The position numbers and the translations under genes are program-made. This document shows positions 30,167-63,431 of a stretch of 64,000 nucleotides of DNA, in pieces (positions within the stretch are counted from its first letter, which is position 1; the number at the start of each line of letters is the position of its first letter). Source of the DNA: an uncultured Sphingomonadales bacterium (GTDB taxonomy: Bacteria > Pseudomonadota > Alphaproteobacteria > Sphingomonadales > Rhodothalassiaceae); NCBI GenBank assembly GCA_947499155.1, contig CANMND010000002.1:124001-188000 (forward strand), given 5' to 3'. A model generated the notes under the pieces. It made no database searches and was not told the origin of the DNA. It saw only the letters and a list, made by a program, of their open reading frames with translations.

Positions 30167-30220
30167 GCAGTATGGCCAGGAGACAGGGAAGAGACATGAT
30201 GAACGGCAGTGGGACAAAAC

Positions 30221-31105: not shown

Positions 31106-31251
31106 GGGGTATCGCTCCGACCGGCGCTCTCTTTGGATGCTAGACAAGGGGTACGGGATGATCGTGGGCTTAAGGCATAACCCTCGACACGTGGAACAGG
31201 TGGCAGTCATGCCAAAAGTCAGCAGGGGTGTAAGCCCCGCCGGTACGTATC

Positions 31252-37969: not shown

Positions 37970-38094
37970 GTCTCTTTTGGGAAACTTTTGCGAATACAGC
38001 TATAGTAAATCATCATTAATTCTAAGGAGGATATTAACGATCTTCTGTAACAAATGATGAGAACGAATTTAAAAGGCAAACTTTTCAGGTCAAT

Positions 38095-39468: not shown

Positions 39469-39502
39469 TGCATTGATGCATCCAAAGAAGTGATCGGATT
39501 CC

Positions 39503-40609: not shown

Positions 40610-41799
40610 ATATACTGGTCTTTACCACCTTGTTTCCCAATGCGCGCCAGCCACATCACGGAATTTTTGTGGAGAACCGCTTGCGTCATTTGCGAGAGAT
40701 GAGCGGATATAAGGCGACTGTCGTGGCACCGGTTCCGTGGTTTCCGTCTCAAAATCAGCGCTTTGGTGTCTATGCCGATTATGCATCCGTACCCCGTCAT
40801 GAAAGTCGTCATAGACTGGATATATACCACCCCCGCTATCCCGCCATTCCCAAGGTTGGGATGATCTGGGCGCCGTTCGGGCTTTACCTGTCTGCCCGGC
40901 GTGTGGTGAAGCAGCTTTTGAAAGACGGGCACCGGTTTGATCTTCTGGATGCCCATTTCTTTTATCCAGATGGTGTGGCAGCGGCCTTGCTGGCGCGGGA
41001 GTTTGGCCTGCCATTTTGTATTACCGGTCGAGGCACCGACCTTAATCTGGTGCCGGACTATCCGATCCCACGTCGTTTGATCCGTAAGGCTGCTGAACGG
41101 GCGTCCGGCCTTATTACAGTCTGCGCGGCCCTTGCAGATGATCTGGCCGACATTGGAATCCCGCGAGAGCGTGTAACCGTTTTACGAAACGGGGTCGATC
41201 TTGACCTGTTCAACAGGCAAGAGGCGAACGCACGTGCATTGCGGGAAAAGCTGGGGATAGGGCAAGGTCCGGTTCTTGCTTCTGTTGGACATTTAATAGA
41301 ACGCAAGGCCCATCATCTGGTGATCGAAGCGCTGGCAGATATGGGCGAAGGCCATTTACTGATCGCGGGAAAAGGGCCGGAAGAGCACAATCTGCGCAGC
41401 CTTGCAAATCGGCTTGGCGTTGCTGACCGTGTCCATTTTTTGGGACTGATACCCCACGAAAAGCTCTCTACTATTTATAGTGCAGCCGACGTGTTCGTAC
41501 TGGCATCCAGTCGTGAAGGGTGGCCCAATGTGCTGTTAGAGTCTATGGCGTGCGGTACGCCAGTTGTTGCAACTAATGTTAATGGTTCACCCGAGGTGGT
41601 GCAAAAGCCTGAAGCTGGTCGCATAGTGGATGAACGACAGGGACCGGCGCTGGCTGCAGCTATACGTGATATTCTGGCTGACAGGCCAGCGGCTGCCATG
41701 GTGCGCGCTTATGCTGAAGGCTTTTCCTGGGATGCAACCAGTCGCGGTCAGATGGATCTGTTCACATCAATCCTAGAAACGCATTGTCGCGTTTACTGA
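40606..41799 (+). CDS. Glycosyltransferase, family 4 (b)
   Basis: GT-B enzyme of 397 residues. Opens NILVFTTLFPNARQPHHGIFVENR, with VLRNGVDLDLF, LIAGKGPEEHNLR and SSREGWPNVLLESMACGTPVV as donor-site blocks. GTG start overlaps the previous stop. Its last 27 bases overlap the end of the convergent outer-membrane export gene, an unusual tail-to-tail overlap. Role: sugar addition in polymer assembly. Confidence 0.9.
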   Translation: MNILVFTTLFPNARQPHHGIFVENRLRHLREMSGYKATVVAPVPWFPSQNQRFGVYADYASVPRHESRHRLDIYHPRYPAIPKVGMIWAPFGLYLSARRVVKQLLKDGHRFDLLDAHFFYPDGVAAALLAREFGLPFCITGRGTDLNLVPDYPIPRRLIRKAAERASGLITVCAALADDLADIGIPRERVTVLRNGVDLDLFNRQEANARALREKLGIGQGPVLASVGHLIERKAHHLVIEALADMGEGHLLIAGKGPEEHNLRSLANRLGVADRVHFLGLIPHEKLSTIYSAADVFVLASSREGWPNVLLESMACGTPVVATNVNGSPEVVQKPEAGRIVDERQGPALAAAIRDILADRPAAAMVRAYAEGFSWDATSRGQMDLFTSILETHCRVY

Positions 41800-43854
41800 T
41801 ATGGAATTCTCGGTAAAGTTCTGGAATGAGACATTGGAAACCCGTTTGCTGATGCCATAATTGAGAGACAATACAAGTTGCCTGAATCCCAGATAATTCA
41901 GACCTGCATTGCCGCGATAATCCTTGTCGGTTCGTGATTCACCACTAAATATCTGAGCAGAAAATTCACGCTCCGTATAACTAGCAAAAGAATTGAACGA
42001 GACTTGACGACTGATGGGGCGTGAGAAGTTCACCCGCGCGGTAATGACCTTTTCCTTGTTGTCGTCGTCATCAGCGCCAAGTTTGTTGGACTGCCAGCTT
42101 CCATGCAATGTGAGGGAGTTGGCGCCGAATGTGCCGTACAAATTGGCTTGGGCGGTTTTAGTGCGAGTGGGATCGCTCCGTAAGGGAAATGGCAGTCCTG
42201 GAGGAAGTGTTGGGTCCAACTCGTCTGGGGTGTCTGGCAAGCCATCGATCAGCCGCTCCTGATCCAGACGAATTCGCTCTTCATAGGATGCATCAAATAC
42301 GAGAGACTGGCCGATCATTTTGGTGAAATATCCACGAACGGACTTTCTTCCATCAATTTGCCCGCCGGTCACTTCAAGAGAGGTTCTGACAGAAGGAGAC
42401 CAGCGAAATCCGCCCATATAAAGTGGATCGTCTACTTCACGGCCAGCCCCTTGACCGGTAAAGTCCTGATAGCCGCCACGAACCAGCAGGGTAAGGCTGT
42501 CGGTCAGGGCATAATCTATATCGGCAATGACTTCCTTGCGCTCGCGATTTGGTCGATTGCTTTGGTCAAAATGAGAGTATTGCCCGGTAATCCGCCAATC
42601 AAGGTTACTGCCGCGGTTTTGTGATTTAAGGGTTATAAGTCCGGTATTTTCAAAGGAGTCTGTTGCTGGTCTGCCGCCTGGAAAATCAGGGTTCAGTGGA
42701 TCAGGCTTTGCTTCTGATATCAGGACAAGACCGCCACGATAGCGGGTCTCAAGTATCGCCGACTGTCCAATTCGGTTCAATAAATAGGGGCTGATCTTAT
42801 AAGTCTGCACGGACTGCGTATTGGCAATATTGCTGACGGTTGAAGATTGTCCGCGGCGCGTATCTGTATTTTGCCGGGATACGGATGCGGCGAGATCAGT
42901 GAAAAACATAGATTCAACAATCTCGATATTTGATGAGGCAGTGACGTCCGGCGCAAATGAAAACTCGTCGTCGGTATTGGTGCGATATTGAAAGCGTAGA
43001 GACGCGTCCACAGCAGCCCGGACTCGCGCCGTGTCATAATCAAGCCGTACTGCAGGCACAATTTCCGTGATGAATGAGCCTTGTTTGTCCGTTCGTCTCA
43101 GATTGAGATTGTCGGTGTAGCTTTGCACAACCGAGATCGAGGGCGAGATAGTGCGCTCACCTGCCAGAAAGCTTTCCGGAATTACGATGACATCACCGGG
43201 GTTAAGCGCCTGGTTCGCGGCTAAATTTCGGCCGCTTTGGATATCCCCAAGATTAAGGGGGATCCGCTTTTGCTCGCCATCCACGTCGCGAAGGATGTAA
43301 GCCTTGTTGGCTGCGGCAGATTTTGGCGCACCACCAATTTCAGTCAGAACAGACATGGCCGTATGGTCGCTACGATAAGGCACACTTAAGGGGGGCGACA
43401 TCGCAGACCCGATTATCCTGATGCGATCATGATAAGTGCCTGCTGTCTGAATGGCGCGGATGGTGACATTAGGATCTTTGATAAAGCGGGAATAGGCCTC
43501 CACAATTTTAACGCCCAGTTCATCAACTCTTAAGCCCACAGCTTCGATATCGCCTATGAGAGCCATGGTGATATAGCCATCCGGCCGAACAATTACTTCA
43601 CCACTGAGCAATTCTTCACCACGGACCGTTATTTCAAAAATATCTTCCGGACCAATTTTGTACATAAAGTCGATTGCCTGGCTGCCATTGTCTTGTTGAT
43701 CTGTGACGCTGCTTCCCACGACTTGTGCAGTGATTATCGGTAAAACCGGCAATATAGGCGGAGAGGTTTCCATGGCAGTCACCGATGGTGAAAAAGCCGG
43801 GAGAGCAAGGCACATAGCCATTGCAACTGATGTGCGCAGATAAAAACAGTTCAT
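41773..43854 (-). CDS. Polysaccharide export (SLBB) domain fused to outer-membrane barrel
   Basis: 693-residue two-part envelope protein. After a signal peptide (MNCFYLRTSVAMAMCLALP) comes a Poly_export domain (MYKIGPEDIFEITVRGEELL, VRPDGYITMALIGD) and an SLBB-like repeat (IRIIGSAMSPPLSVPYRSD, LNPGDVIVIPESF). From about residue 240 the rest is alternating beta-strand sequence ending in NSISVNATMRF, like the exosortase-linked outer-membrane barrels (TIGR03016 type). Start ATG 43854 follows AGGGGG. No lipobox was seen. Likely an outer-membrane conduit for the polymer. Confidence 0.82.
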   Translation of the reverse strand: MNCFYLRTSVAMAMCLALPAFSPSVTAMETSPPILPVLPIITAQVVGSSVTDQQDNGSQAIDFMYKIGPEDIFEITVRGEELLSGEVIVRPDGYITMALIGDIEAVGLRVDELGVKIVEAYSRFIKDPNVTIRAIQTAGTYHDRIRIIGSAMSPPLSVPYRSDHTAMSVLTEIGGAPKSAAANKAYILRDVDGEQKRIPLNLGDIQSGRNLAANQALNPGDVIVIPESFLAGERTISPSISVVQSYTDNLNLRRTDKQGSFITEIVPAVRLDYDTARVRAAVDASLRFQYRTNTDDEFSFAPDVTASSNIEIVESMFFTDLAASVSRQNTDTRRGQSSTVSNIANTQSVQTYKISPYLLNRIGQSAILETRYRGGLVLISEAKPDPLNPDFPGGRPATDSFENTGLITLKSQNRGSNLDWRITGQYSHFDQSNRPNRERKEVIADIDYALTDSLTLLVRGGYQDFTGQGAGREVDDPLYMGGFRWSPSVRTSLEVTGGQIDGRKSVRGYFTKMIGQSLVFDASYEERIRLDQERLIDGLPDTPDELDPTLPPGLPFPLRSDPTRTKTAQANLYGTFGANSLTLHGSWQSNKLGADDDDNKEKVITARVNFSRPISRQVSFNSFASYTEREFSAQIFSGESRTDKDYRGNAGLNYLGFRQLVLSLNYGISKRVSNVSFQNFTENSISVNATMRF

Positions 43855-44049
43855 ATGGGGCCCCCTGAGATGTGCCTTGTCATATAGATTTAAACCCGAG
43901 TTTAACTCGGATAGTCGCACCATACTAAGCTATCATAATATAAACATAACCCATACGTCCCGTGAAAATCATGTAAATACGGGGCCTTGCCCTTAATTTC
44001 ACTCTTCTTTACAGATAAACAGGAACTCTGGAAAGGCGTCGGCCCAAAT

Positions 44050-45201
44050 ATGCGTATTTTGTATCATCATCGAATCCTGGCGGCTGATGGCATGCAGGTT
44101 CATATTAAGGAACTGACAGCAGCTCTTGAGCGCTGCGGCCATGAGATTGCCATGGTTGGTCCGGACACGGTCTCATCAGCTGGTAAACCGACACTAACCG
44201 GTCGTTTGGGTGCCCTGCGTTCCCATCTGCCCGCAGCCTTCGGCGAATTGCTTGAAGCAGGATACAATCTTAAGGCTTATAGGCAGCTAAAAGAAGAAGC
44301 ACAGACGTTTCGACCCGATATTATCTATGAACGCTATAATTCATTTCTTCTGGCCGGGTTATGGCTCAAGCGGGCACTGGGCATACCTCTTTTGGTTGAG
44401 GCAAATTCTCCGCTCTGCCACGAGCGAAAACTTTTGGGAAATTTAAAACTTGAACGCCTTGCCCGCTCAATGGAAAGGCAAGTATGGCGCGAAGCAGATG
44501 CTGTATTACCGGTCAGTCATGCTATTGCAGACTTTGTGCGCAAGGAAAATGTGCCTGATGAGCGCATTCACGTCATCCCCAATGGGGTCCGTCCTGAAGT
44601 CTATAAGGGCATTCGGGACGGCGTGATGAGAAAGGCGCTCCAACTGGAAGACAAGATCGTCTTTGGCTTTGTTGGCTATATTCGGCCGTGGCACGGGCTT
44701 GACCGTGTTCTTCATGCCTTTAAAAATCTGGAAAATCCATCACTCCATTTATTGATTGTGGGGGAGGGGCCTGCTAGTGACGGCTTGAAGAGTACGGCTT
44801 CAGATTTGGGACTCTCCGGGCAACTGACCTTTACTGGTCGGCAGCCACATCACAAAATTCCCGCATTTCTTGGGGCGATGGATGTGGCTTTGCAGCCGGA
44901 TGTAAATGCTTACGCATCACCTTTGAAGCTGTTTGAATATCTGGCAGCAGGATGCGCCATCATTGCGCCTGACAGGCCCAATATCCGTGAATTGGTGACG
45001 AGCGGTGAGACTGCACTTCTGATCAATCCGGAACAGGATGGCGAACTGGAAACTGCGATCAGAACACTAGCTAACGATCATGATTTGCGGTCCCGCCTTG
45101 GTCATGCTGCCATACAGCATATAAATGACCGTGAATTTACCTGGGATGCAAATGCCCGAAGGGTTGCAGCCATAGCCGATGCAGCTCTGGGGGCGGCCTG
45201 A
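44050..45201 (+). CDS. Glycosyltransferase, family 4 (c)
   Basis: GT-B enzyme of 383 residues. Opens RILYHHRILAADGMQVHIKEL, with VIPNGVRPEVY, LLIVGEGPASDGL and a donor-site region SPLKLFEYLAAGCAII. ATG 44050 begins a normal GT N-terminus; the open frame reaches 43987 without a ribosome site. It stands alone on the plus strand between two minus-strand groups, so it has its own promoter, possibly in the 195 bases before it, shared divergently with the barrel protein. Confidence 0.9.
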   Translation: MRILYHHRILAADGMQVHIKELTAALERCGHEIAMVGPDTVSSAGKPTLTGRLGALRSHLPAAFGELLEAGYNLKAYRQLKEEAQTFRPDIIYERYNSFLLAGLWLKRALGIPLLVEANSPLCHERKLLGNLKLERLARSMERQVWREADAVLPVSHAIADFVRKENVPDERIHVIPNGVRPEVYKGIRDGVMRKALQLEDKIVFGFVGYIRPWHGLDRVLHAFKNLENPSLHLLIVGEGPASDGLKSTASDLGLSGQLTFTGRQPHHKIPAFLGAMDVALQPDVNAYASPLKLFEYLAAGCAIIAPDRPNIRELVTSGETALLINPEQDGELETAIRTLANDHDLRSRLGHAAIQHINDREFTWDANARRVAAIADAALGAA

Positions 45202-45241: not shown

Positions 45242-46606
45242 TCAGGATTTTGGTGTTTCAGTTCGCGCTGAGACTGGCCGCACAATTCTGCGAGGAGGTG
45301 TGGTACGGCCAGCGGTCGCCATGAGGCTACTTCTACCTGAAATTTTAGCTGTGGGTTCTGCCGAGGTCTCTAATTCCGTCTGAATCACAAGCAAGGTGAC
45401 GGCGGCAAGACTCACAAACAGAAAATAAAAGTCGAAGAATGCCAGATTCTGGAATGCGCCACCCACCATATAGGCAATGAGGCTTACCTGACACAGCGCG
45501 CTTAAGTCTTTGGCCCAGGCCAATTGCGGATGTGATTTTGTCAGCTTGATTATTTTTGAAAAGCATCGCCATGTGGCGACCAACAGCCCCATGAACAACA
45601 CAAAGCCTATAAATCCGTGCTGGCCAATGATCTCAAAGTATATCGAATGGGCGTTGTGAGTAGTCTTTGCTTCAGGAATGATGGAAAAATAGAGGTCCTT
45701 GTCATAATAAACGCCAAAACCACCACCTGTAAGCGGGCGTTTTTTGGCTATTTCATAGGAGAAACGCCACGCCATGATCCTTTCCATGGCAGAGCTGTCT
45801 TCTTCATAGGTCTGGATCGTCTCCATACGATCAACCCAGCTATCGGGTACAAACCAGATCGCAATACTGGCAACGACAATTGCGGCAAGGCCCAGACTAA
45901 AGCGGTTGCGTGACTTCAGGATCATGAAACTTGCCATGGAGACGACTGCAAGAAATGCCCCGCGCGACTGGCTGCCAATGATGGAAAACACAATGAGAAC
46001 CATGCCGATTATCAGGCAGATGCGCAGAAGACGGCTTTCAGTCTGCAATTGAAGGTAACGTAATAGGGGGAGCAGCATGGTCAGCGCCATGGCAAGAGCA
46101 TTATTGTCGCCAATAAAGCTGCGTGGTGGCCCCCAGACATGGGCCTCGCCTCCTGTTACTAAAGTGAAAAGCCCCCCCTTAAAACCATAATATCCCAAGG
46201 AAAGTACAGTCACCCAGATTAAAATGTGAATACGTTCACGTTTGGCCATTAGTGGAATAGTAACAGCCGTCATCAGTAAAATTTTTAAGGTTTGTTCCCA
46301 TTTAGGCCAGGCAAAGTCCGGCATGCTGGCATTATAGGTCGTCCAGGTGATCCATATGGCGATTAAAAGCAAAAGCAGAGTTATGGGTGTGGCAGGAATG
46401 CGTTTTTTTTCTTTGCCGGCCAGCCAGGCGATCAGGGTTGCTCCACCAATGATCGCAGCAAAAGGCATGACATTGAGTGCGCCATAAACCAATCTGTGCG
46501 GGTTCATGAGGCCTATCCAAAACCAGGCCAGAATTCCAGTCATCGGCCAGCGAAAAATCACAGGCAGAAGGCAGAGAACAGCTAAAGCGATGACAAGTGC
46601 ACCCAC
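45242..46606 (-). CDS. Putative O-ligase/polymerase, exosortase A system-associated
   Basis: Polytopic membrane protein of 454 residues with about 10-12 helices of the Wzy/WaaL type. The Wzy_C block is IIGSQSRGAFLAVVSMASF; a periplasmic loop has GGGFGVYYDKDLYF and HNAHSIYFEIIGQHG, as in O-antigen ligases. It matches the exosortase-linked ligase family. GTG 46606 follows AAGGA. It either polymerises the repeat unit or links polymer to a protein. Last gene of a minus-strand run of glycan genes. Confidence 0.87.
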   Translation of the reverse strand: MGALVIALAVLCLLPVIFRWPMTGILAWFWIGLMNPHRLVYGALNVMPFAAIIGGATLIAWLAGKEKKRIPATPITLLLLLIAIWITWTTYNASMPDFAWPKWEQTLKILLMTAVTIPLMAKRERIHILIWVTVLSLGYYGFKGGLFTLVTGGEAHVWGPPRSFIGDNNALAMALTMLLPLLRYLQLQTESRLLRICLIIGMVLIVFSIIGSQSRGAFLAVVSMASFMILKSRNRFSLGLAAIVVASIAIWFVPDSWVDRMETIQTYEEDSSAMERIMAWRFSYEIAKKRPLTGGGFGVYYDKDLYFSIIPEAKTTHNAHSIYFEIIGQHGFIGFVLFMGLLVATWRCFSKIIKLTKSHPQLAWAKDLSALCQVSLIAYMVGGAFQNLAFFDFYFLFVSLAAVTLLVIQTELETSAEPTAKISGRSSLMATAGRTTPPRRIVRPVSARTETPKS

Positions 46607-46623
46607 AATCTTGATCCTTTGCC

Positions 46624-47520
46624 TTACGGAACCGTGTTGTCGCTAATTGAAAATGGCCCAGCCTTGCCTTGACTGGCCAACTGCTCTCCGGATTTGAAGC
46701 GATTATACAGATCGAGGCACAGTTTTGCGATGGCAGGCTCTATGCCTGGCGGGTCGTGTCGACCGACAGAGCGTGCATTTACTTTTTTCAAAATCATCGG
46801 ATCGGCTTTTAATTGAAGCCAATGCAAGAGCGCTGTCCCGTTTGCATGCGGATCTGAGACAAAATCCTCATAGGTGACGGTTACAACCCGTGGATCTTTA
46901 TCCAGTTCCAGCTCGAAGAACAGCCGGTTTCTTATGAGCCAGAATAAAGCGACGGCTGATTCATGAGTGATATCCGGGTGTATATGCTTTTGGAGCAATA
47001 AATTTGTCTCTTCGCTCATGCCAAGGCCGCGCCAGCCCTCTGACAAGGGGTCGCGGCTGATATTGACCATTCTTGGACCACAGCCCCGTGTCTGGCTGGA
47101 AACAAACACTGAACGGGTGTGGGAATTGACCATATCTTCCATGCGGCGGATCATCCAAATGGCACGGGCATGGGGAAAATCGTCCAGCAGTTTTTTCAGA
47201 TCCTGCAATTCACACAAAGCCTTGAATACCACTGTGCGGGCACGTGACGATGAAACAAGATTTTGCAGATGGGAGTGGGGGAGTAATTCGTAATTATTAT
47301 AGGCGTTTGGATCACTTTCCCGGTAAACGTCTGTTTCAAGGGAGCGTTCCAGAATTTGCGTCATCATATTCGTGCCGGACCGTTGAACACCTGCAATCCA
47401 GACCACCTGCTTTTCATTATATATTTTGTGTGGTGCCATAAACTGACGCAGTTTTTTGTACTCTTGGAAGAGTCTGCCGTCAAAGCGGTTGCGCAGTTGA
47501 GCAGTGTTGGCTTTTGTCAT
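46624..47520 (-). CDS. Sulfotransferase-family protein (1)
   Basis: 298-residue PAPS-dependent sulfotransferase-like protein. The 5'-phosphosulfate loop is IAGVQRSGTNMMTQIL near residue 42; a later segment RRMEDMVNSHTRSVF has the 3'-phosphate-site pattern (R...S). The start ATG 47520 lies 19 bases after the flippase stop and has AAGGA upstream. It differs from the two other sulfotransferases here, having a GVQRSGT rather than a GAxKCATT loop. Likely substrate: the exopolysaccharide. Confidence 0.8.
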   Translation of the reverse strand: MTKANTAQLRNRFDGRLFQEYKKLRQFMAPHKIYNEKQVVWIAGVQRSGTNMMTQILERSLETDVYRESDPNAYNNYELLPHSHLQNLVSSSRARTVVFKALCELQDLKKLLDDFPHARAIWMIRRMEDMVNSHTRSVFVSSQTRGCGPRMVNISRDPLSEGWRGLGMSEETNLLLQKHIHPDITHESAVALFWLIRNRLFFELELDKDPRVVTVTYEDFVSDPHANGTALLHWLQLKADPMILKKVNARSVGRHDPPGIEPAIAKLCLDLYNRFKSGEQLASQGKAGPFSISDNTVP

Positions 47521-47539
47521 GTCCGATCCTTCTTCATGC

Positions 47540-49045
47540 TCAGTCCTCCCGCTTTTTGGCTTTAGAACGTCCAAGCAGGTGTATCAACTTTGCTTTCACA
47601 TGAATAACAAGGCCACGCTCAAAATCAGCTGGTCGGCCACGCAAGAGCCAGAGAAGATAAACGAAAACAATATAACTCAGGACTCCGGTTAAAACATCGA
47701 CGGGCAGGGATAAAAAGGGTGACCAGCTTTCTGAATGTAGCCATTTGACGATGGCGGCCATTGCAAAGCCTGCTGCAAAACGCGGCCATAAGGTAAGAAA
47801 AACCCCGCGTAAGGTTAAAGGTGTTACCTGGCCGACCAGTAAAAAAGAAAAGGGCAGAACAGCAAGGGCGATCCCGGCTCTTGCTAGGGCGATATAATCA
47901 ACCGAGACATAGCGGGCCACCAGATAAAGAACGACACTTAGCGTAATCATCTGGGAAATACCCAGAAGTGCGAGAAGACGCACTCGCCCGATAGCCGTCA
48001 ACAAGGCCTCAATTGTCGCTCCCAGCGCATAAAAGATGCCGAAAATTGCCAGCGTTTCGATCAAGGGAATGACATCAAGCCACTTGCTGCCGAGAAGAAC
48101 AGGAACCATGACGGGAGCTGTGGCCCAAAGCCCAAGTCCTATAGGAATAATGAAAAGTGCGACTGTGCTGAGCGCTTTTAGAAAGCTTTCCACCAGTTTT
48201 TCCGGCTCGTGTTGAAGCCGGGCGTACACAGGATAAAGACCACGAGCCATGGGCGTTACCAGTTCATTTGTGGGCGATGTCGCAAGGTCATAAGCGACAT
48301 AGTACCGTCCCATGAACAATGTGCCGGCAAAACTCCCCACAATAAACTGGTCCATTCTGCGAGCCGCGTAACGGGTAACTCTTTGAACCACAAGCCAGGA
48401 TGAAAAAGACACGAGTTGACGGACATTTTTCAGGGTCAGACGCGGCCGATATGCGTGAACACGGTAACTATAGGCGACATTTACGCATTGCGAAGCCACA
48501 GCGCCATAAACAAGTGCCCAATAGTTGCGCAAAACAATGGCGAGGGCGATTGTGACGACCAGGCCGAAGATACGTTTTATCACATTGAATCGAAATTCGC
48601 GGCTGTAGTCGAATGTTCGTCTAAAATCGATAGTCCCTATATTCTCAAGGCCCATAAGAACAGAGCGAATGGAATAGGCACGGATAACGGCTGTAAGCTT
48701 ATCCTCTGCAAAAAAATCCGCAACATAAGGGGCAATGACAAACAGGATCATACCCATAAACAAGGATATAAGCAGTTGCAGAGTCCAAGCTGAATCATAA
48801 TCGGTGCGGTCCGGCTTGTCGTGGCGGATCAAGGCAAGGTCAACGCCACTTTGTGCAAGGACATCCAGCAAGCCGACGATTATCATTGCCATTGCAATGA
48901 CACCGAAATCTTCTGGGGCAAGAAGTCGGACCAGGATTAAAGTGCTTAGGATGCCAAGGCCCCTGATGGCCCAGCGCATGCCAACCATCCAGACACCACC
49001 GCGGGTCATCTGCCGATCAACTTCGATCTGGTCCCTATTGGTCAT
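47540..49045 (-). CDS. Lipopolysaccharide/oligosaccharide flippase (Wzx-like)
   Basis: 501-residue membrane protein with about 12-14 helices of the polysaccharide transporter/MATE-like group. Opening block GVWMVGMRWAIRGLGIL then LVRLLAPEDFGVIAMAMII is typical of Wzx/TuaB relatives. Moves lipid-linked repeat units across the inner membrane. I chose ATG 49045, which begins MTNRDQ, with GGGGA upstream, rather than the longer frame. Flanked by sulfotransferase genes on the same strand. Confidence 0.9.
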   Translation of the reverse strand: MTNRDQIEVDRQMTRGGVWMVGMRWAIRGLGILSTLILVRLLAPEDFGVIAMAMIIVGLLDVLAQSGVDLALIRHDKPDRTDYDSAWTLQLLISLFMGMILFVIAPYVADFFAEDKLTAVIRAYSIRSVLMGLENIGTIDFRRTFDYSREFRFNVIKRIFGLVVTIALAIVLRNYWALVYGAVASQCVNVAYSYRVHAYRPRLTLKNVRQLVSFSSWLVVQRVTRYAARRMDQFIVGSFAGTLFMGRYYVAYDLATSPTNELVTPMARGLYPVYARLQHEPEKLVESFLKALSTVALFIIPIGLGLWATAPVMVPVLLGSKWLDVIPLIETLAIFGIFYALGATIEALLTAIGRVRLLALLGISQMITLSVVLYLVARYVSVDYIALARAGIALAVLPFSFLLVGQVTPLTLRGVFLTLWPRFAAGFAMAAIVKWLHSESWSPFLSLPVDVLTGVLSYIVFVYLLWLLRGRPADFERGLVIHVKAKLIHLLGRSKAKKRED

Positions 49046-49145
49046 GGAATAGGCTTCCCCATTGGTGCGGCAAAGCAGATGAATGCGCACATCCGCTCTT
49101 TAGACGAACATTTCATATATGCCATGACAAGCGGCGGGCACCTGT

Positions 49146-50114
49146 TCACAGCTTTTCGCTGGTGCACCAATGAGACAAATCACGATCAAGCAGCTTGGAT
49201 AGCCTGGTGACTTCAGGCTGTAACTCCTGCATCAACGAATATCTTAAATCAACTGGCAGGGGCGGGCGGGGCTTGAAGCTGGTGTTTATGCGCTTGAGTT
49301 TCATGCGTGCTTTATATCGAAGCCCTTCCGTTGGAAGAATGACACGACTAAGAGCAGTCACCCAGTCTGGCGTCTCACGAAGGAAGGCACCAAAGCGCTT
49401 GCTGCGCAATTCCTTATTGGCGTTTTTAACCGTAAATTCTGGTTGAAAACTGTCATCAACTCCCAAAAACCGCAAGATTCCGGCATAGGTTCCAGGGAGA
49501 TCTTCCCGGACATCATCATAGAAAACAAAGTGAAGTTGATTAGGTGGGAAGACTGCCATAAACCGTTCGATCTGTTCTGAAAAACGAACGATATCACGAT
49601 AATGAAGAACTCGTTCACGATAAGTGATGTGTTTATTGTCGTGGGTTGCACGGCGTTCATGTTCCAGAGCCAGAGCTTTTGAAAAGTCCTTTTCTGTTTC
49701 AAGGCCTTCAAAGACAATCTGCGAATGATGAGAGACGATCACCTCCATAGGGTCTCTCAACATAAACAGGATTTTGGAGTCCGGCTGATGGGCGTGAATT
49801 CTCTTTGCTGCGGTTTGGGATAACATATAGAAGACCGAGCTTTCTCCTACGATCTTTTCCGTTGTAACAGATTCGAAAAAGCCGAAATAACGACTTCTTG
49901 GACATCTGATATCGGGTGGATAGAGATCGTCGGCGAAATAGTGACTCTCTTTAGATTTAGCCATAAAAATCTCAGGGTGAGCGGCCAGATAAGAATCCAT
50001 GGCTGTCGTTGCACATTTCGGAGCACCTGCAATGAAGAAATTGGGTGTTGCGTCAGCTCTGGCTGATCTTTTGTGCTTTCGTTCGTCTAAACGTGCACTT
50101 TCCATTATGCTCAC
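49146..50114 (-). CDS. Sulfotransferase (2)
   Basis: 322-residue PAPS-dependent sulfotransferase. Phosphosulfate loop FIAGAPKCATTAMDSYL near residue 27, 3'-phosphate motif FMLRDPMEVIVSHHSQ, and a C-terminal LRYSLMQELQPEVTRLSKLLDRDL typical of carbohydrate sulfotransferases. Start GTG 50114 follows AGGGGG; ATG 50105 is an alternative. Probably sulfates the polymer in the cytoplasm before export. Confidence 0.9.
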   Translation of the reverse strand: MSIMESARLDERKHKRSARADATPNFFIAGAPKCATTAMDSYLAAHPEIFMAKSKESHYFADDLYPPDIRCPRSRYFGFFESVTTEKIVGESSVFYMLSQTAAKRIHAHQPDSKILFMLRDPMEVIVSHHSQIVFEGLETEKDFSKALALEHERRATHDNKHITYRERVLHYRDIVRFSEQIERFMAVFPPNQLHFVFYDDVREDLPGTYAGILRFLGVDDSFQPEFTVKNANKELRSKRFGAFLRETPDWVTALSRVILPTEGLRYKARMKLKRINTSFKPRPPLPVDLRYSLMQELQPEVTRLSKLLDRDLSHWCTSEKL

Positions 50115-50238
50115 GTTTTATGTCCCCCTGTTCCACTTTTATATGCCTGTGCCCACATTGATCCATAGGGATCGCATCATCCGGGATAGTTGCAAAGAAT
50201 TCGTTGCATATGAAGATATTACATTATTAATTCGCTAT

Positions 50239-51102
50239 TTAGCGATTAAAGGCAAGGCCTGTGCACTTTGTGAAGGCTTCCATATCGTCTGCCAGCAGTG
50301 CAGTGACAAGTGCTCGATCCTTATCTGACATAGGCGGTATATCTTTAGTAAATGCGCGCCGAAGGTTTTCTATTGTGCGCGCAGGCAGAAGACTGCGTGC
50401 GACCTTTGTTGCGGAGCGGAGAACGCTTCTCCCGGATTTTGTGGACCCCAACAGTTTGCCAATACCGTTATAGCGATAGCTGGCATTGCGTCTGTCTGTA
50501 CTGATGGCTTCCGGCTGATATGCAGGCAAGCCGATGAAGTCCCAAACTTTTTGCGCCTCTTGCAGCGGCGCACGGGTTGCCGGCCCCGCATCAAGGACCA
50601 TGATCTGATCTTTAGGGAACAGTGCAAGATATTGCATTATCTGAAAATGATATCGGCTCAGATCAAGGTACCAACTGTTGTACTTTATAGCTTCGTGAAA
50701 TGGGCGTTTCTCCTCGCCCAGTCGCACATGATGCCAATATGAGGAGTAGGTGCGCGCAACCGGATCTCGTACAAGGTATATGATCCGGGCATCGGGGGCA
50801 CGTGCATGGATGCGTGCTGCTACTCCACTTCTTGCCTTGTGGGATTGCCGCTCGGATCGGTCAAATGGTTCGGCAGAATAGCTGGTAGAGGCATCAAAAA
50901 GAATCTTTCCATCCGAATTCGGGAAAAAGCTTTGGAACCATTCATCACCGCGGCTGAGGTGCTCGGAAAAAAAGTCTACTTCTTTGGTACGAGCCAGAAC
51001 AATATCGGGATGAAGTGCGATTATATCAGCAAAATAGGTGGTGGCACATTTCTGAGCCCCTATTAGATATAGTTTCGGCGGAAAGCCGGAGCAGACAGTC
51101 AC
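50239..51102 (-). CDS. Sulfotransferase (3)
   Basis: 287-residue PAPS-dependent sulfotransferase. Loop LIGAQKCATTYFADIIALHPD near the N-terminus, 3'-phosphate motif YLVRDPVARTYSSYWH. I place the start at GTG 51102 with AGGAG eight bases before it; the longer frame to 51297 overlaps the small gene upstream. Same family as sulfotransferase 2 but clearly different in the rest, so they may act at different positions of the sugar chain. Confidence 0.9.
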   Translation of the reverse strand: MTVCSGFPPKLYLIGAQKCATTYFADIIALHPDIVLARTKEVDFFSEHLSRGDEWFQSFFPNSDGKILFDASTSYSAEPFDRSERQSHKARSGVAARIHARAPDARIIYLVRDPVARTYSSYWHHVRLGEEKRPFHEAIKYNSWYLDLSRYHFQIMQYLALFPKDQIMVLDAGPATRAPLQEAQKVWDFIGLPAYQPEAISTDRRNASYRYNGIGKLLGSTKSGRSVLRSATKVARSLLPARTIENLRRAFTKDIPPMSDKDRALVTALLADDMEAFTKCTGLAFNR

Positions 51103-51139
51103 AAAAAGCTCTCCTGTCAGGGTCAAAATATAACGGGGA

Positions 51140-51367
51140 TTAGCGCCAGGTGCGTCTTGATCTGAAACGGCTGTTGGATGGCGATGGTCTGCGTATAGGT
51201 GGGGCTTTGGGATCATCTTCAGGCGCGTCATTATCGGCACTGACACGCCGCATGGCAAATATGCCGCGCTGATCATTGATGGTATTGGCTCCATCATTCT
51301 TCAAGAGCCAGACAATCATATAAAATAAGCCAATGATCACTACGACCACGCCTATGCTGTTAAGCAT
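51140..51367 (-). CDS. Small single-helix membrane protein
   Basis: Seventy-five residues: an N-terminal membrane helix (residues 4-22, IGVVVVIIGLFYMIVWLL), then a polar tail rich in Asp, Pro, Ser and Arg. It sits 12 bases after the lectin-like gene and 37 bases before sulfotransferase 3, all on the minus strand, so it is probably part of that operon. No family recognised. Confidence 0.6.
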   Translation of the reverse strand: MLNSIGVVVVIIGLFYMIVWLLKNDGANTINDQRGIFAMRRVSADNDAPEDDPKAPPIRRPSPSNSRFRSRRTWR

Positions 51368-51379
51368 GCATCACCCGTC

Positions 51380-52000
51380 CTAGTCGTTTGTAGATTGAGC
51401 AGTATCGGATGTTGGAGCCGGATATTCCACCAGGAAATTTGGATATCGCTTCAGAAATCCTGCAGCACGCCATCGACTGGCTGTTCCTTGTATATAAACG
51501 CCCATATAAGGAAGTTTCTGATTGATTTCGCAGCGGGTGCCACCATCCCGATACCAAGGCGTGTCCCATGCGCTGAATGATTGAAAGGAATATGTAGCGC
51601 CATCTATATCTGTTAGCTTGCGAAAGCTGCACCAGTAGCGAATACCGATCCAGGTGTTGCCATTATAGCCCCGCTCGGGCAGATCGAAGGTGCCAAGCAC
51701 CCAATTCTGAAGTTCAGCGCTGTCTAGCATGGCAAGTCGGCCATGGCGTCCCTTGTACGTGCGTTCCGCCGCTAAAGAGCGAGCATCTTCCCATGTGGCA
51801 CCGCTGTTATCGCGCGTAAAGTCGCTGATCAGCTGATAATAACTTCCATTGCCTTCAAACAGGACAACCTCAGACTCCCAGAGCTTGCTTCCTCGTTCGC
51901 CCAGTTCTTTTGGTGCTCGCTGGGCATTTGATTCAAGGCTAAGGAGCAGGGCTATGGCCAGAGTCACAGTCACTACAAAACTATGCATGAATTTGTTCAT
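51380..52000 (-). CDS. Secreted C-type-lectin-like domain protein
   Basis: 206 residues: signal peptide (MNKFMHSFVVTVTLAIALLL, cut near SNAQ), then one domain with C-type lectin features. The start of the domain is YYQLISDFTRDNSGATWEDARSLA, followed by GRLAMLDSAELQNWVLG, the core NTWIGIRYW, and a closing YPNFLVEYP strand. Two cysteines in the second half could pair. Sugar binding is suggested by the fold and by neighbours (sulfotransferases), not proven. Divergent from the first ligase gene. Confidence 0.6.
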   Translation of the reverse strand: MNKFMHSFVVTVTLAIALLLSLESNAQRAPKELGERGSKLWESEVVLFEGNGSYYQLISDFTRDNSGATWEDARSLAAERTYKGRHGRLAMLDSAELQNWVLGTFDLPERGYNGNTWIGIRYWCSFRKLTDIDGATYSFQSFSAWDTPWYRDGGTRCEINQKLPYMGVYIQGTASRWRAAGFLKRYPNFLVEYPAPTSDTAQSTND

Positions 52001-52338: not shown

Positions 52339-53919
52339 ATGGTCCTTGGTGACATGGTCTTGCGCATGGCGGGGACTACCCCTGCGGCGCCTGCTTTACA
52401 AGACAAGCACAAGTCTCTCACTTATGCGGAACTGGCCGAGGAGATTTCTCGCGTTTCAGGCCATTTCAAGGCGTGTGGTCTTAGGCGCAATGATCGGGTT
52501 GCCATATTCCTTGATAGTCGTATCGAGACGGTAATTGCCAGTTTTGCGGTGTCTGCAGCGGGTGGCATTTTTGTCTTGTGCAATCCAATCTTGAAGGGGC
52601 ATCAGGTTGCGCATATCCTGAATGATACAAAAGCACGATTCTTCATCACGGGGACCGGGCGGTATGAAGCCGTTTATGATGATGTGCTGAAAAGTGCCTG
52701 CCAAACACTTATTCTTACAGATGATGAACCCTTATATGCGAATACTGGTTCCTGCACAGTTATACGCTGGTCGTCTTTTACAGAGGAGGTGCCGAATAGT
52801 CCTTCTGGCCTTGGCCAACTGGTTGAGAGTGACATAGCGACGATCTTTTATACATCAGGCAGCACAGGCCTGCCCAAAGGCGTTATCATCTCTCACCGGA
52901 ATCTGGTAGCGGGCGCCATAAGTGTCAGCAGTTACTTGAAAAATACGCCTGATGACCGCATTTTAGCCTTGTTGCCTCTGGGCTTTGATGCAGGGTTCAG
53001 TCAACTGACAACTGGCTTTTATTCCGGTGCAGAAGTCATCTTGCACAATTATCTGACGCCATCGGATGTGTCGCGTGTCTGTGATCGCCACAAAGTAACC
53101 GGGATTACAGCGGTGCCTCCCACTTTCATACAGCTTTTGAAAGCAGACTGGACTGACAGCGCGTGCCATTCTTTACGGTATTTCGCCAATACTGGTGGCC
53201 ACATGCCAGAGCAGTTGCTAGGCCGATTGCGGGCACAGTTTCCCAAAGCAGAACCTTATTTGATGTACGGTCTGACTGAAGCATTCAGGTCCACCTATCT
53301 CAATCCTAAAGAGGTGGATAAGCGGCCCAACTCCATCGGCAAGGCGATCCCCAATGCGGAAATTCTGGTGGTGAAGCCTGATGGTAGTCTAGCAGGCCCG
53401 GATGAAGAGGGGGAACTGGTGCATCGGGGGCCGTTGGTTGCGCAAGGTTATTGGAATGACAAGGATCTCACCGATAAAAAATTCCGTGCCGCCCCAGACC
53501 AGCCGGAAGGACGCCCTTACGCTGAACGTGCTGTATGGTCCGGCGACATGGTTCGTATGGATAAGGACGGGTTCCTCTATTTTGTTGGCCGCAATGACGA
53601 CATGATCAAGGTTGGCGGTGCAAGAGTAAGCCCTGGTGAGGTGGAAGAGATCCTTTATGGGGTTGAAAGCGTCCGCGAGGCGGCGGTATTTGGAATTCCT
53701 GATGAAGACCTTGGCGCACGGATAATCGCTGTGATTGCCTTCGATGACAAGGATGCCAGCAGGGTCGAGGCGACATTGTCCCACTGTCGCCGCACCTTAC
53801 CGGTATTTATGGTACCTTCAGAAATTGTAGTTTTAGACACGCTTCCTCGTTCGCCCAATGGAAAGATTGATCGTAAAGCCCTGAAAAGTACTCTGGTCTC
53901 AGATAGCGTAGGGGGCTGA
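52339..53919 (+). CDS. AMP-forming acyl-CoA ligase, exosortase A system-associated (1)
   Basis: 526-residue adenylation enzyme (ANL family). Core motifs: YTSGSTGLPKGV (P-loop), YGLTEAFRSTY, GELVHRGP, WSGDMVRMDKDGFLYFVGR and the catalytic lysine in RSPNGKIDRKAL. Activates an acid, perhaps an amino acid, for loading on the acyl carrier protein of this cluster. It is a paralogue of the enzyme at 58717, sharing long blocks such as PNAEILVV and LPL-FDAGFSQLTT. Followed after 91 bases by an asparagine-synthase-like gene. Confidence 0.92.
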   Translation: MVLGDMVLRMAGTTPAAPALQDKHKSLTYAELAEEISRVSGHFKACGLRRNDRVAIFLDSRIETVIASFAVSAAGGIFVLCNPILKGHQVAHILNDTKARFFITGTGRYEAVYDDVLKSACQTLILTDDEPLYANTGSCTVIRWSSFTEEVPNSPSGLGQLVESDIATIFYTSGSTGLPKGVIISHRNLVAGAISVSSYLKNTPDDRILALLPLGFDAGFSQLTTGFYSGAEVILHNYLTPSDVSRVCDRHKVTGITAVPPTFIQLLKADWTDSACHSLRYFANTGGHMPEQLLGRLRAQFPKAEPYLMYGLTEAFRSTYLNPKEVDKRPNSIGKAIPNAEILVVKPDGSLAGPDEEGELVHRGPLVAQGYWNDKDLTDKKFRAAPDQPEGRPYAERAVWSGDMVRMDKDGFLYFVGRNDDMIKVGGARVSPGEVEEILYGVESVREAAVFGIPDEDLGARIIAVIAFDDKDASRVEATLSHCRRTLPVFMVPSEIVVLDTLPRSPNGKIDRKALKSTLVSDSVGG

Positions 53920-54010
53920 TATCGCATCTTCAGGCAGAGTGAGGACAGAAGCGTGCGGGCTGAACAAATATCAGCGAGCAGTAAATATATAAAGTGGAGA
54001 GCGAACGAAC

Positions 54011-55870
54011 GTGCCTGGAATTTGCGGTTGGATAGCGAAATCTGTGGGAGAAAATCCCCGGAAGGTGATTACGGACATGGCCAATGGCCTGGTACGCCGG
54101 CCAGGCGAAGACGTGCGTATCTGGCAGGAAGGGGGCATGGCACTTGCGGTCCTCGACAAGGACGGCCATGGCCTGAGCGTTGATGATCATCATGCCGTGG
54201 CGATTGGCGGCCGTCCATATTGGACTGACAGGTCTCTTGCTGAAGAAGCAAAAGCCAGAGGATTTGCCCGCAGTCTAAAATCCGCCTGGGAAAGCCGGGG
54301 AGTTCAAGCACTTGATCTCCTGCGTGGGTCCTTTTCCCTTGCCGTGATCGACCGTGTTAATAACCGCCTCACTATCGCAATCGACAGAGTTGGTATTGAA
54401 AGTCTGTGTCATAGCGACCTGACAGATGGTCTGGTCTTCGGTAGCCGGACAGATGCACTTCTCGCCCACAGGGATGTGGATCGTCCTGTTGGACCGCGAG
54501 GCATATATCGATATGCCATGAACTATGTATCACCGGCGCCCTACACAATTTATGATGGTGTTGACAAGCTTTTGACAGCTCATGCCCTGCATTGGGATGC
54601 GCAAGCAGGGGCCAGACTGGAGCGGTATTGGGTAACGCCTTATGATGGGGCAGCGTCCGGCGATATTTCTTCTCTTGGCAAGGAACTTTTGCTCCATCTT
54701 GAACAGGGTGTGGAACGCAGTGTTGCTTCGCATCTGGAGTCTGGCGGCACTGTCGGTGCCTTTTTAAGTGGTGGACTGGACAGCTCCACAGTCAGTGGCA
54801 TGTTGGCACGAGTCTTGGACAGGCCGGCTCCAGTTTTTACCATTGTATTTGAAGAAGAGCGTTATAATGAAGGGCCGTTTGCGCGGATAGCGGCCAAACA
54901 ATTTGGTCTGAAACACCGGGAGTACTGTCTTAAACCCGCAGATGTTGTTGATCTGTTGCCGGACCTTGTTCGGGTCTTTGACGAGCCGTTTGGAAATTCA
55001 TCAGCTATTCCGGCAACTTATTGCGCGCGCATGGCTAAAGAGGATGTGTCCTTACTGTTGGCGGGTGATGGCGGCGATGAGCTCTTTGCTGGTAACAAGC
55101 GCTATGCTGAACAAAAAATCCTGGACTATTATCATCGTATTCCTGGGGTTTTTCGGGCTTTGGGCGCGCCTGTTTTTGGTGCAATTCCCGATGCTCTGGC
55201 CGTTGGCCCTCTCGGCAAAATAAAGCGTTATATCCGCCGTGCCAGCCTGCCCATGCCAGAGCGCATGCATAATCCAGATGTCTACACCCGTGCAGCTTTG
55301 AGTCATATTTTTACCCCGGACACCTTGGCCGGGATCGCCGTGGAAGAGCCCTATACCCTGTGGTCGCGTCACTACAAGGATTCAGGCACAGACGACATGC
55401 TGGCGTCCATGTTGCACATGGATATGCGCATTACTCTTGCTGATAACGATATTCGCAAGGTCAATGGTGCCTGCCTTCTGGCAGATATCGATGTCGCCTA
55501 TCCCATGCTGGATGATGAGCTGGTGGACTTTGCCGCACACCTGCCTTCTGAGATGCTTATGAAAGGCACGCGCCTGCGTCATTTTTATAAAGAATCGATG
55601 GTTGGTTTTTTGCCAGAACAGATTATTAATAAGGAAAAACAAGGATTTGGTATGCCTTTCTCAGAGTGGACGCGAAGCTATGCTCCCTTGAGAGAGATCG
55701 CTGTTGATTGCCTTGAAGGATTGGGTCAACGGGGATTTTTCCGATCCGAGTTTCTGGATCAGGTTCTGGCAGACCATCTGTCCGATGAACCTTCGCCTAC
55801 GGACAGTATCGTCTGGGACATGATCATGCTGGAGATGTGGCTGCGTGACCGTAATCCCCGCATAGAGTAA
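54011..55870 (+). CDS. Asparagine-synthase-like amidotransferase (2)
   Basis: 619 residues. The N-terminal glutaminase-like domain begins MPGICGWIA, so the cysteine is residue 5, not residue 2; a canonical N-terminal nucleophile would need removal of four residues. The synthetase domain has an intact PP-loop FLSGGLDSSTVSG and LLAGDGGDELFAG. Start is GTG 54011 with GGAGAG upstream. Probably adenylates and amidates a carboxyl group made or carried by the neighbouring ligase system. Convergent with the hydrolase genes, 16 bases away. Confidence 0.87.
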   Translation: MPGICGWIAKSVGENPRKVITDMANGLVRRPGEDVRIWQEGGMALAVLDKDGHGLSVDDHHAVAIGGRPYWTDRSLAEEAKARGFARSLKSAWESRGVQALDLLRGSFSLAVIDRVNNRLTIAIDRVGIESLCHSDLTDGLVFGSRTDALLAHRDVDRPVGPRGIYRYAMNYVSPAPYTIYDGVDKLLTAHALHWDAQAGARLERYWVTPYDGAASGDISSLGKELLLHLEQGVERSVASHLESGGTVGAFLSGGLDSSTVSGMLARVLDRPAPVFTIVFEEERYNEGPFARIAAKQFGLKHREYCLKPADVVDLLPDLVRVFDEPFGNSSAIPATYCARMAKEDVSLLLAGDGGDELFAGNKRYAEQKILDYYHRIPGVFRALGAPVFGAIPDALAVGPLGKIKRYIRRASLPMPERMHNPDVYTRAALSHIFTPDTLAGIAVEEPYTLWSRHYKDSGTDDMLASMLHMDMRITLADNDIRKVNGACLLADIDVAYPMLDDELVDFAAHLPSEMLMKGTRLRHFYKESMVGFLPEQIINKEKQGFGMPFSEWTRSYAPLREIAVDCLEGLGQRGFFRSEFLDQVLADHLSDEPSPTDSIVWDMIMLEMWLRDRNPRIE

Positions 55871-55886
55871 TGTGATATCTTTGGGA

Positions 55887-56756
55887 TTAGTTCCGTTCGA
55901 GCCATTCCAATGTGGCTTGGGTGACTGCGTTCGACCAGCGCGGGTCAGAAAACGTATGATCCGCATCATCCAGGCGTAGACAGGAAAAGGTGGGGCGTGC
56001 TGCAATGACGTCCCAGTCCTTTAAGGAACTGACTTCCTGTTCAAATTCTTTCGCCGTTAAGTCATTTCCGCTCAGTACCAGTTGGATGGGCCCCTGAAAT
56101 TTAGATGTGGAGTCGACAATCCGTTCAGCAAGGGCAGACGCTTTTGGATTGCCGTCGGCTGAATGGGTGTTAGGGGTCCGACGCAGCTTGCGTTTGCTTA
56201 TTTTCCACACAAGTCTTGGAAAATCCAGTAGCCTGACACGGCCCTTTATCAGGCTTTTCCAGAATCCCTTATCGAAGAGGCGGCGCGCATAATAGTGACG
56301 CAGCAATACCTTGTCATAGGCGCTTTCATCATGTGCCCAAGGGTTTAGCATCATGATATGTGAGACGCGCGGGTCTTCATGGCCATAAAATGCACTGGCG
56401 GACGCGGCATTGCACAGTCCCCAAAGAGCCACCTTTTCAATGAGAGGGCATGTCTCAAACATGGCATCAATTGCGGTTTTAATGTCGTCAGTCAGATTTT
56501 CAAAGCCGGGGTAGGTGCCGTCGCTGTCACCCATGCCGCGATAATCAAACCGCATGACCGGATAACCGTTTTCTGCCAGTGCTCGGGCGAGCGTAACGAA
56601 ATAGCGATGACCACCAGCACGATATTGCGGGCCTCCCACGATGATGAGGACAGCACGCTTCTTGTACTTCACTGGCTGGTGCAGGATGGAAATCAGTTGT
56701 TCCTGGCCACATTGCAAGACCAGTGCCTGTTCTGACATATGCGAGGCTTTGTTCAT
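55887..56756 (-). CDS. Alpha/beta hydrolase 1, exosortase A system-associated
   Basis: 289-residue alpha/beta hydrolase. The nucleophile elbow is WGLCNAASAS, with cysteine in place of serine; oxyanion region VGGPQYRAGGHRYFV; acid and histidine in LSGNDLT and DDADHTFSD. This matches the exosortase-linked hydrolase 1 family, whose Cys nucleophile is usual. ATG 56756 overlaps the hydrolase 2 stop as ATGA; the longer frame reads through hydrolase 2. May release or edit groups on the carrier protein. Confidence 0.9.
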   Translation of the reverse strand: MNKASHMSEQALVLQCGQEQLISILHQPVKYKKRAVLIIVGGPQYRAGGHRYFVTLARALAENGYPVMRFDYRGMGDSDGTYPGFENLTDDIKTAIDAMFETCPLIEKVALWGLCNAASASAFYGHEDPRVSHIMMLNPWAHDESAYDKVLLRHYYARRLFDKGFWKSLIKGRVRLLDFPRLVWKISKRKLRRTPNTHSADGNPKASALAERIVDSTSKFQGPIQLVLSGNDLTAKEFEQEVSSLKDWDVIAARPTFSCLRLDDADHTFSDPRWSNAVTQATLEWLERN

Positions 56757-57586
56757 GGCAAGTGGCTTTCCATGCGCCGGGCAATAAGGTCGAGCAGGCC
56801 CTGAGGTGCAACAGGTTCGGGCATGGCCCAAAAGGCTTCATCCTGCAGATAATGGGCCTTTAAGGCGCTGCTAGCATGACGCCAACTTTCCGGGGTGCTG
56901 GCGAGCAGCTCTTCCGGCTCACGGGCGACAGGCCCGGTTTCAATCCATTCAACCGGCAAGTCAGGAGGCGGGGCCAGTTGTTGCAGGCTGCGTTTCGCCA
57001 TGGGCAGTGCCAATGAGGGGGGCAGGGAGTAACCGGATACGTTGACGTTTTCGCCGTTCTCAAGCAGTTTTTTCAGGGCACCGGCACTTTCGCGCTCACC
57101 CCGGCTCATGGCGGCGGCGACACGCAGGCGGAGAAACTGAGTGAGAAAGCGTTCGCCACTTATAACCGGCTGGATCATAAGGGCACCGGCCACGCCTTCT
57201 GGAGCTAGATGTAGTTGATCTGCCAGAAGCAGGGCGCCTGTGCGGATACCCCCAAGCCAAAGGGGAAGGTCTTGATTGTTGGCGCGGGCATGACGACGCA
57301 GGCGTGCAACGTCGTCCACCCAACCGTCCCAGCTAGCCTGATCAAAAGATCCGCCACTGTCACCGGTGCCGTATGTGTCGGCGATCAGAACGCAAAAACC
57401 CTTAAGTGCCAGTGTCCTGCCAATTGCCGCCATCATCTTTCTGGAGCGGTTCATCTCTTCAGCAAAAGGAGAGAGCAACAAGAGGCTCGCTTTAGGAGTG
57501 CAATGCCCTGGTGCTACGCCCAGTACGAAAAGCGGACCCGTGGACCCATTAATGAATTGGGCTGACAGAACCGGGCGCTTGGTCAC
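56753..57586 (-). CDS. Alpha/beta hydrolase-like 2, exosortase A system-associated
   Basis: 277 residues with the alpha/beta hydrolase outline (LLLLSPFAEEMNRSRKMM, VLIADTYGTGDSGG). The elbow position reads LWLGGIRTGALLL, with arginine where Ser or Cys should be, so it is probably not a normal hydrolase and may be a partner of hydrolase 1. It matches the exosortase-linked hydrolase 2 family. ATG overlaps the carrier-protein stop by four bases, and its own stop overlaps hydrolase 1. Confidence 0.88.
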   Translation of the reverse strand: MTKRPVLSAQFINGSTGPLFVLGVAPGHCTPKASLLLLSPFAEEMNRSRKMMAAIGRTLALKGFCVLIADTYGTGDSGGSFDQASWDGWVDDVARLRRHARANNQDLPLWLGGIRTGALLLADQLHLAPEGVAGALMIQPVISGERFLTQFLRLRVAAAMSRGERESAGALKKLLENGENVNVSGYSLPPSLALPMAKRSLQQLAPPPDLPVEWIETGPVAREPEELLASTPESWRHASSALKAHYLQDEAFWAMPEPVAPQGLLDLIARRMESHLP

Positions 57587-57834
57587 GCTGACAATTTCGC
57601 TTCGACAAAAGCACTCAGGCTTCCAACTGTTTCAAAGACGTCGCCATTGATTTCATCGTCTTCAAACATGATGTCGAATTGCTCTTCCAGAGCAGACACC
57701 ACATTGATAACAGCCATGGAATCAAATTCAGGAATTTCTCCCAGTAACGCAGTTGAAGGCTGAAGACGCGGTCCTCTCTCACCCAGACCAAGTGATTTGG
57801 TCAAAATATCTCGGACCCGTTCAAATGTGGCCAT
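57583..57834 (-). CDS. Acyl carrier protein
   Basis: 83-residue carrier protein with the phosphopantetheine serine at residue 39 in EFDSMAV, a four-helix acidic sequence (EEQFDIMFEDDEI). ATG 57834 is chosen, with AGGGA before it; the longer open frame has no ribosome site. First gene of the minus-strand operon carrier-hydrolase 2-hydrolase 1, each joined by ATGA. It is the only carrier in the window and so the natural partner of both AMP-forming ligases. Confidence 0.92.
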   Translation of the reverse strand: MATFERVRDILTKSLGLGERGPRLQPSTALLGEIPEFDSMAVINVVSALEEQFDIMFEDDEINGDVFETVGSLSAFVEAKLSA

Positions 57835-57953
57835 GTCAGTTCCCTTATCACATGATAGCCAAGGACTTAATGTGGTCCTATCTTGGTGCATCACTTTTGT
57901 CCAGACAACATACGAGATGAATGAGACCGTGACACAATGCCTTTTTTAATTGA

Positions 57954-58643: not shown

Positions 58644-58716
58644 CTAAGTGCGATGGCCTTGATCTGGTTGATCGGATAAGGTCCGCATCCTGTTTAGTAC
58701 ACAAGCCAGGGGGCAT

Positions 58717-63331: not shown

Positions 63332-63431
63332 ATATCCCCGTTCAATTCTCTGGCGGTTCACGCGGCCTTGTGAATATGGCATTCTATATAAGGGGATTAC
63401 GTCAAATTAAGCTTTGGAGCAATATCTGACA

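Follow-up and report, generated by a model that had tools for sequence, protein, structure and literature searches.

The window analysed here, a DNA stretch of 64,000 nucleotides, carries an exosortase A (XrtA) glycan locus in which three sulfotransferase-like genes lie with a flippase gene and an O-ligase gene. To our knowledge, sulfated polysaccharides have rarely been documented in bacteria beyond cyanobacteria and some marine Gammaproteobacteria. The locus raises the question of what these three proteins would sulfate, and at which step. We consider it likely that they are cytoplasmic carbohydrate sulfotransferases of the XrtA Wzx/Wzy-type pathway, that the lipid-linked unit is sulfated before flipping, and that the sulfation pattern varies by cassette exchange.

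Gene content of the locus

The features of the locus are as follows.

22067-23017 and 23415-24374: two PepA-type PEP-CTERM proteins
27685-34390, plus strand: XrtA export/assembly backbone, i.e. OPX, chain-length determinant, tyrosine kinase, ATPase, polysaccharide deacetylase, and FemAB
34400-36022, plus strand: exosortase A (TIGR03109, 302.8 bits, cut-off 208)
36041-45201: amidotransferase, priming transferase EpsB2 (38095-39468), three GT4 glycosyltransferases, and OPX/outer-membrane fusion
45242-46606, minus strand: PEP_O_lig_1, XrtA-associated O-ligase/polymerase (TIGR03097, 478.5 bits, cut-off 188.1)
46624-47520, minus strand: ST1, predicted sulfotransferase (PF13469/PF00685), PSB loop GVQRSGTN, with a same-order homologue in genome G013
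47540-49090, minus strand: Wzx-type flippase (Polysacc_synt_3, 266.5 bits)
49146-50114, minus strand: ST2, related to heparan-sulfate 3-O-sulfotransferases/NDST and to structure 3rnl
50239-51297, minus strand: ST3, same broad class as ST2, start possibly at 51102
51380-52000, minus strand: putative secreted protein with a C-type-lectin-like domain
52339-61583: remaining XrtA locus, i.e. two TIGR03098 acyl-CoA ligases, a second amidotransferase, two hydrolases, and a PLP decarboxylase

The XrtA/PEP-CTERM exopolysaccharide system of the window is complete: the XrtA-specific export, chain-length, kinase, ATPase, deacetylase, FemAB, amidotransferase, and ligase families all scored above their cut-offs, and PrsK, PrsR, and two PrsT proteins are also encoded. 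No Rfam family was matched in the window. The sulfotransferase genes belong to a minus-strand operon of six tightly packed genes (45242-52000), which are transcribed in the order lectin-like gene, ST3, ST2, Wzx, ST1, and PEP_O_lig_1. At the end of the operon, where ST1 sits between Wzx and the ligase, the gaps are only approximately 20 bases. The reading frame of ST1 is open to 47574, but the ATG at 47520 is the likelier start because its homologues begin there. The start at 51102 that the original prediction had assigned to ST3 is plausible, as the homologue in genome G020 begins just before the same GFPP segment; the lectin-like first gene was absent from that prediction.

One minus-strand protein (41773-43923) joins an OPX domain to a TIGR03016 outer-membrane protein, and a separate OPX gene is present at 27685. 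A ThiF/E1-like adenylyltransferase fused to an Acg/nitroreductase-like domain (24474-26492) adjoins the exosortase-associated acyltransferase; when the family loci were compared, a counterpart (65%) was found only beside that of G020. The 594-amino-acid protein encoded at 61598-63382 has no NCBIfam family, and its homologues adjoin hydrolase genes in the XrtA loci of other families and adjoin ST2-Wzx-ST1 in G013 (L129).

Sulfotransferase classes and PAPS supply

The presence of three sulfotransferases with the flippase and O-ligase in an exosortase A glycan locus, as originally predicted, was confirmed by Pfam, PAPS motifs, and XrtA families. ST1, ST2, and ST3 matched PF13469 with 46.1, 60.7, and 48.6 bits, respectively (cut-off 27), and ST3 also matched PF00685 (48.2 bits, cut-off 22). 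The two GAxKCATT loops and one GVQRSGT loop read earlier correspond to the 5'-PSB loops GAPKCATT (ST2), GAQKCATT (ST3), and GVQRSGTN (ST1), and each protein also contains a 3'-PB R-x7-S motif (RRMEDMVNS in ST1, RDPMEVIVS in ST2, and RDPVARTYS in ST3). With the domain and both PAPS motifs present, all three are predicted PAPS-dependent sulfotransferases. No signal peptide or membrane segment was evident by eye in the three sequences.

Among solved structures, ST2 and ST3 match heparan-sulfate 3-OST and NDST (E-values down to approximately 2e-13 for ST3), as well as the bacterial sulfotransferase structure 3rnl. The TKEVDFF segment of ST3 aligns with the catalytic Glu segment of 3-OST-1, whose catalytic base in the mouse enzyme we take to be Glu90, within ENEVHFF, and the Lys-Glu pair at this position is invariant in all nine aligned ST2/ST3 relatives. 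On the basis of this homology and the catalytic Glu, ST2 and ST3 are predicted to be heparan-sulfate 3-OST/NDST-like carbohydrate sulfotransferases. ST1 showed no homology to the heparan-sulfate 3-OST/NDST enzymes in phmmer or profile searches; as a single sequence it matched no solved structure by phmmer, and its family profile gave weak matches to tyrosylprotein sulfotransferases (the best), CurM, and SULTs. AlphaFold predictions from single sequences had pLDDT values of 34.6 for ST1 and 32.1 for the lectin-like protein.

A tandem-duplication origin of the three genes was rejected, as ST2 and ST3 are only 26% identical to each other and ST1 matches neither; recent duplicates they are not. 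Approximately six sulfotransferase genes are present in the genome, with three Sulfotransfer_3 matches (one below the cut-off) outside the locus, and the chance that at least three of about six would fall within the 36-kb locus by random placement is approximately 4e-5. A scan of genome contigs with ST2 detected six distant loci (27-41% identity), and a scan of viral contigs with ST1 detected no relatives.

In the genome (2.8 Mb, 25 contigs), contig C6 carries the genes for CysD and a CysNC fusion and contig C3 that for CysH, and no PAPS synthesis gene lies inside the locus. This agrees with the earlier proposal that the supply comes from elsewhere: PAPS is available although it is not locally encoded. 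PAPS is cytoplasmic, so sulfation before flipping would be the natural order.

Linkage to Wzx and the predicted acceptor

In the pathway that we propose, the priming transferase (38095-39468) and the three glycosyltransferases would assemble roughly four sugars on undecaprenyl, and ST1, ST2, and ST3, belonging to different subfamilies, would sulfate this lipid-linked unit at different positions in the cytoplasm, using PAPS from the housekeeping enzymes CysD/CysNC. Once sulfated, the unit would be flipped by the Wzx encoded among the sulfotransferases, and the ligase/polymerase, the chain-length determinant, and the OPX proteins would then assemble and export the sulfated polymer. Gene counts thus predict a unit of approximately four sugars with up to three sulfates. 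The locus probably makes a sulfated polymer, and multiple sulfation of this polymer is plausible.

The sulfated glycan may instead decorate PEP-CTERM proteins through PEP_O_lig_1 by O-glycosylation, a possibility that we rate below export as a free exopolysaccharide. The ligase family is named as the putative O-glycosylation ligase of exosortase A systems, and PepA PEP-CTERM proteins are encoded nearby, at 22067-24374. However, this ligase activity is itself putative, and the OPX protein, chain-length determinant, and tyrosine kinase point to the export of a long polymer. The two fates are compatible, and both can be true.

Evidence on the acceptor comes from the family of the host, in which seven genomes were compared and relatives of the window's Wzx were sought in all. 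Such relatives were found in six genomes (G000, which is that of the window, G013, G020, G026, G006, and G031), and each of the six has a sulfotransferase gene as the immediate neighbour of Wzx, with differing flippases and sulfotransferases, although these counts are not independent because only seven genomes of the family were compared. In G013 (contig C5), which represents another genus, the order ST2-Wzx-ST1 is kept (identities of 60, 50, and 49%, respectively), and other XrtA-type genes are close by. In both G020 and G026, Wzx lies between a PF03567 enzyme and a PF13469 enzyme, and a sulfotransferase adjoins Wzx in G006 and G031. In the fragmented seventh genome, G036, one sulfotransferase adjoins the ligase and three more are located on one contig. 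In G056 and G038, genomes from two other families, a homologue of ST2 is likewise located next to a Wzx. This recurring linkage favours a glycan acceptor over small metabolites and is the strongest evidence that the acceptor would be the Wzx substrate, i.e. the lipid-linked repeat unit.

It is unlikely, in our judgement, that at least one of the enzymes, for which ST1 would be the best candidate, acts on a protein tyrosine or a small molecule and owes its place in the locus to something else. The best solved relatives of the ST1 profile are the tyrosylprotein sulfotransferases, by weak matches (approximately 1e-5) that rest on the PSB loop, and the ST1 homologues in G056, G081, and G029 adjoin no recognised Wzx; against this, ST1 is tightly packed between Wzx and the ligase in the window and lies beside Wzx and ST2 in another genus.

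In G006 (L168:10526-11584) and G031 (L169:3894-5018), the sulfotransferase-Wzx pair is located away from the O-ligase locus, indicating that the XrtA glycan genes are split in these two genomes.

Cassette variation and distribution among XrtA loci

The same-genus genomes G020 and G026 share 48-80% identity with the window over the stretch of genes between OPX and the second GT4, both included, whereas the operon is far more variable. The Wzx of the window shares 24 and 22% identity with those of G020 and G026, respectively, versus 50% with that on C5 of G013, and the ligase identities are 44 and 46%. ST1 is absent from both same-genus genomes, and ST2 (61%) and ST3 (41%) are present in G020 but absent from G026. 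The closest Wzx and ST1 come from another genus. The loci of G020 and G026 contain four and two sulfotransferases, respectively, of partly other types. The best reading of these comparisons is that the lectin-like, sulfotransferase, flippase, and ligase genes act as a cassette that changes quickly while the XrtA backbone around it is conserved, which looks like the repeat-unit gene exchange of O-antigen loci. If so, the sulfation of the polymer would differ between related bacteria, in the way that serotype is set by O-antigen loci. Recent import, considered as a source of the cassette, has no sign in a foreign GC content: the cassette genes range from 0.46 to 0.51 (window mean 0.50), and only ST2 is slightly low. 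That the sulfotransferase genes are passengers, newly acquired or in decay, and the polymer unsulfated is very unlikely, since, although cassette content differs even within the genus, the frames are open, the motifs intact, the operon tightly packed, and the GC content near that of the rest of the locus, and Wzx-linked sulfotransferases have been independently retained across the family.

A multiply sulfated polymer, as implied by three PAPS-dependent enzymes, had been described at the outset as non-standard for XrtA systems, and sulfotransferases are indeed not standard in the 29 non-family XrtA loci surveyed (exosortase above the cut-off, with approximately 20 kb to either side as far as the contig reached). 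A candidate sulfotransferase was found within 20 kb in three loci (G599, G619, and, weakly, G310), none was found in the other 26, and no locus contained more than one; in the regions used for checking, the profile employed for detection picked up the Pfam-positive enzymes. In G599 and G310, the candidate adjoins Wzx near the ligase. At least one sulfotransferase is present in the ligase locus of 5 of the 7 family genomes versus 3 of the 29 outside loci (Fisher p of approximately 0.003, relatedness ignored). In G599, the sulfotransferase beside Wzx is itself fused to a hexapeptide-repeat (acetyltransferase-like) domain (L084:10441-11874).

Like other XrtA/PEP-CTERM loci (PMC1569441; floc formation in Aquincola, PMC9850573), the locus of the window encodes exosortase A, OPX, chain-length determinant, kinase, deacetylase, FemAB, amidotransferase, EpsB2, ligase, PrsK/PrsR/PrsT, and PepA, but it differs in its sulfotransferases, which are unmentioned in the founding PEP-CTERM paper of 2006 (Haft et al., PMC1569441). 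No description of sulfotransferases in XrtA loci was found in the open-access papers searched, and those that contain both exosortase and sulfotransferase mention exosortase only in passing, once or twice.

The locus also contains the gene set of the synechan (xss) cluster of Synechocystis, i.e. sulfotransferases with Wzx, glycosyltransferases, a chain-length protein, and OPX. The xss cluster, which has eight glycosyltransferases and two sulfotransferases and yields a sugar : sulfate ratio of 8:2, is likewise of the Wzx/Wzy type, and its sulfotransferases come from distinct subfamilies (PMC8205485). Deletion of xssE, one of its two sulfotransferase genes, had no substantial effect on bloom formation or EPS accumulation (PMC8205485). 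Unlike the locus described here, it is plasmid-borne in a cyanobacterium, has two rather than three sulfotransferases, and has no exosortase/PEP-CTERM system described in the cluster (PMC8205485). In the capsule clusters of Vibrio sp. KMM 8419, which has three sulfotransferase genes and local PAPS genes (PMC11641403), and Cobetia marina KMM 1449, which is similar (PMC11766843), sulfotransferase genes are also found inside the polysaccharide locus; sulfation of those polymers was shown chemically. Those are ABC-transporter capsules with in-cluster PAPS genes, whereas the window has a Wzx pathway, an XrtA system, and remote PAPS genes, and so lacks what has been termed a hallmark of a sulfated-polysaccharide cluster, namely in-cluster PAPS synthesis genes (PMC11641403). 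The locus differs from the known clusters in its XrtA setting, Wzx-centred order, and lack of local PAPS genes; because multi-sulfotransferase polysaccharide clusters have precedents (PMC8205485, PMC11641403), only the XrtA setting is new. Cyanobacteria and marine bacteria are known to make sulfated polymers of this kind, but for XrtA loci such a polymer has apparently not been described.

The first protein of the operon scored 14.1 bits against PF00059 (cut-off 22.6). All nine members of its family match PF00059, weakly, with one homologue (36.7 bits) above the cut-off, and the family profile finds C-type lectin structures. Homologues lie in the ligase locus across several families of the order (L048, L050, L051, L056-L059, and L064), and most of those from outside the host's family carry no sulfotransferase there; the lectin-like protein may therefore be a general, undescribed part of XrtA systems.

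A more far-reaching idea, which we consider quite unlikely to be correct, is that heparin-like polymers are the product of the family's XrtA systems: amines exposed by the XrtA deacetylase, together with hydroxyls, would be sulfated by the 3-OST/NDST-like enzymes before flipping, the sulfation serotype would be swapped between strains, and the secreted C-type-lectin-like protein would read the sulfated glycan and hold the matrix together.

A whole family with flippase-tied sulfotransferases in diverging cassettes would offer a genetic system in which to learn whether sulfation or flipping comes first, would allow the sulfate content of a repeat unit to be predicted from genes, and would supply sulfotransferases for the production of heparin-like polymers; surface charge would be an added variable property of exosortase-dependent biofilm matrices.

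Control of the sulfotransferase operon by a sigma-54 PEP-CTERM box was considered and is unsupported, with no box upstream of 52000. Sigma-54-like boxes (TGGCACN5(G/A)TGC), whose total in the window is not above chance, are found at 22024-22039 and 23392-23407, just upstream of the two PepA PEP-CTERM genes, a position that agrees with RpoN/PrsR control, by which pepA is known to be regulated.
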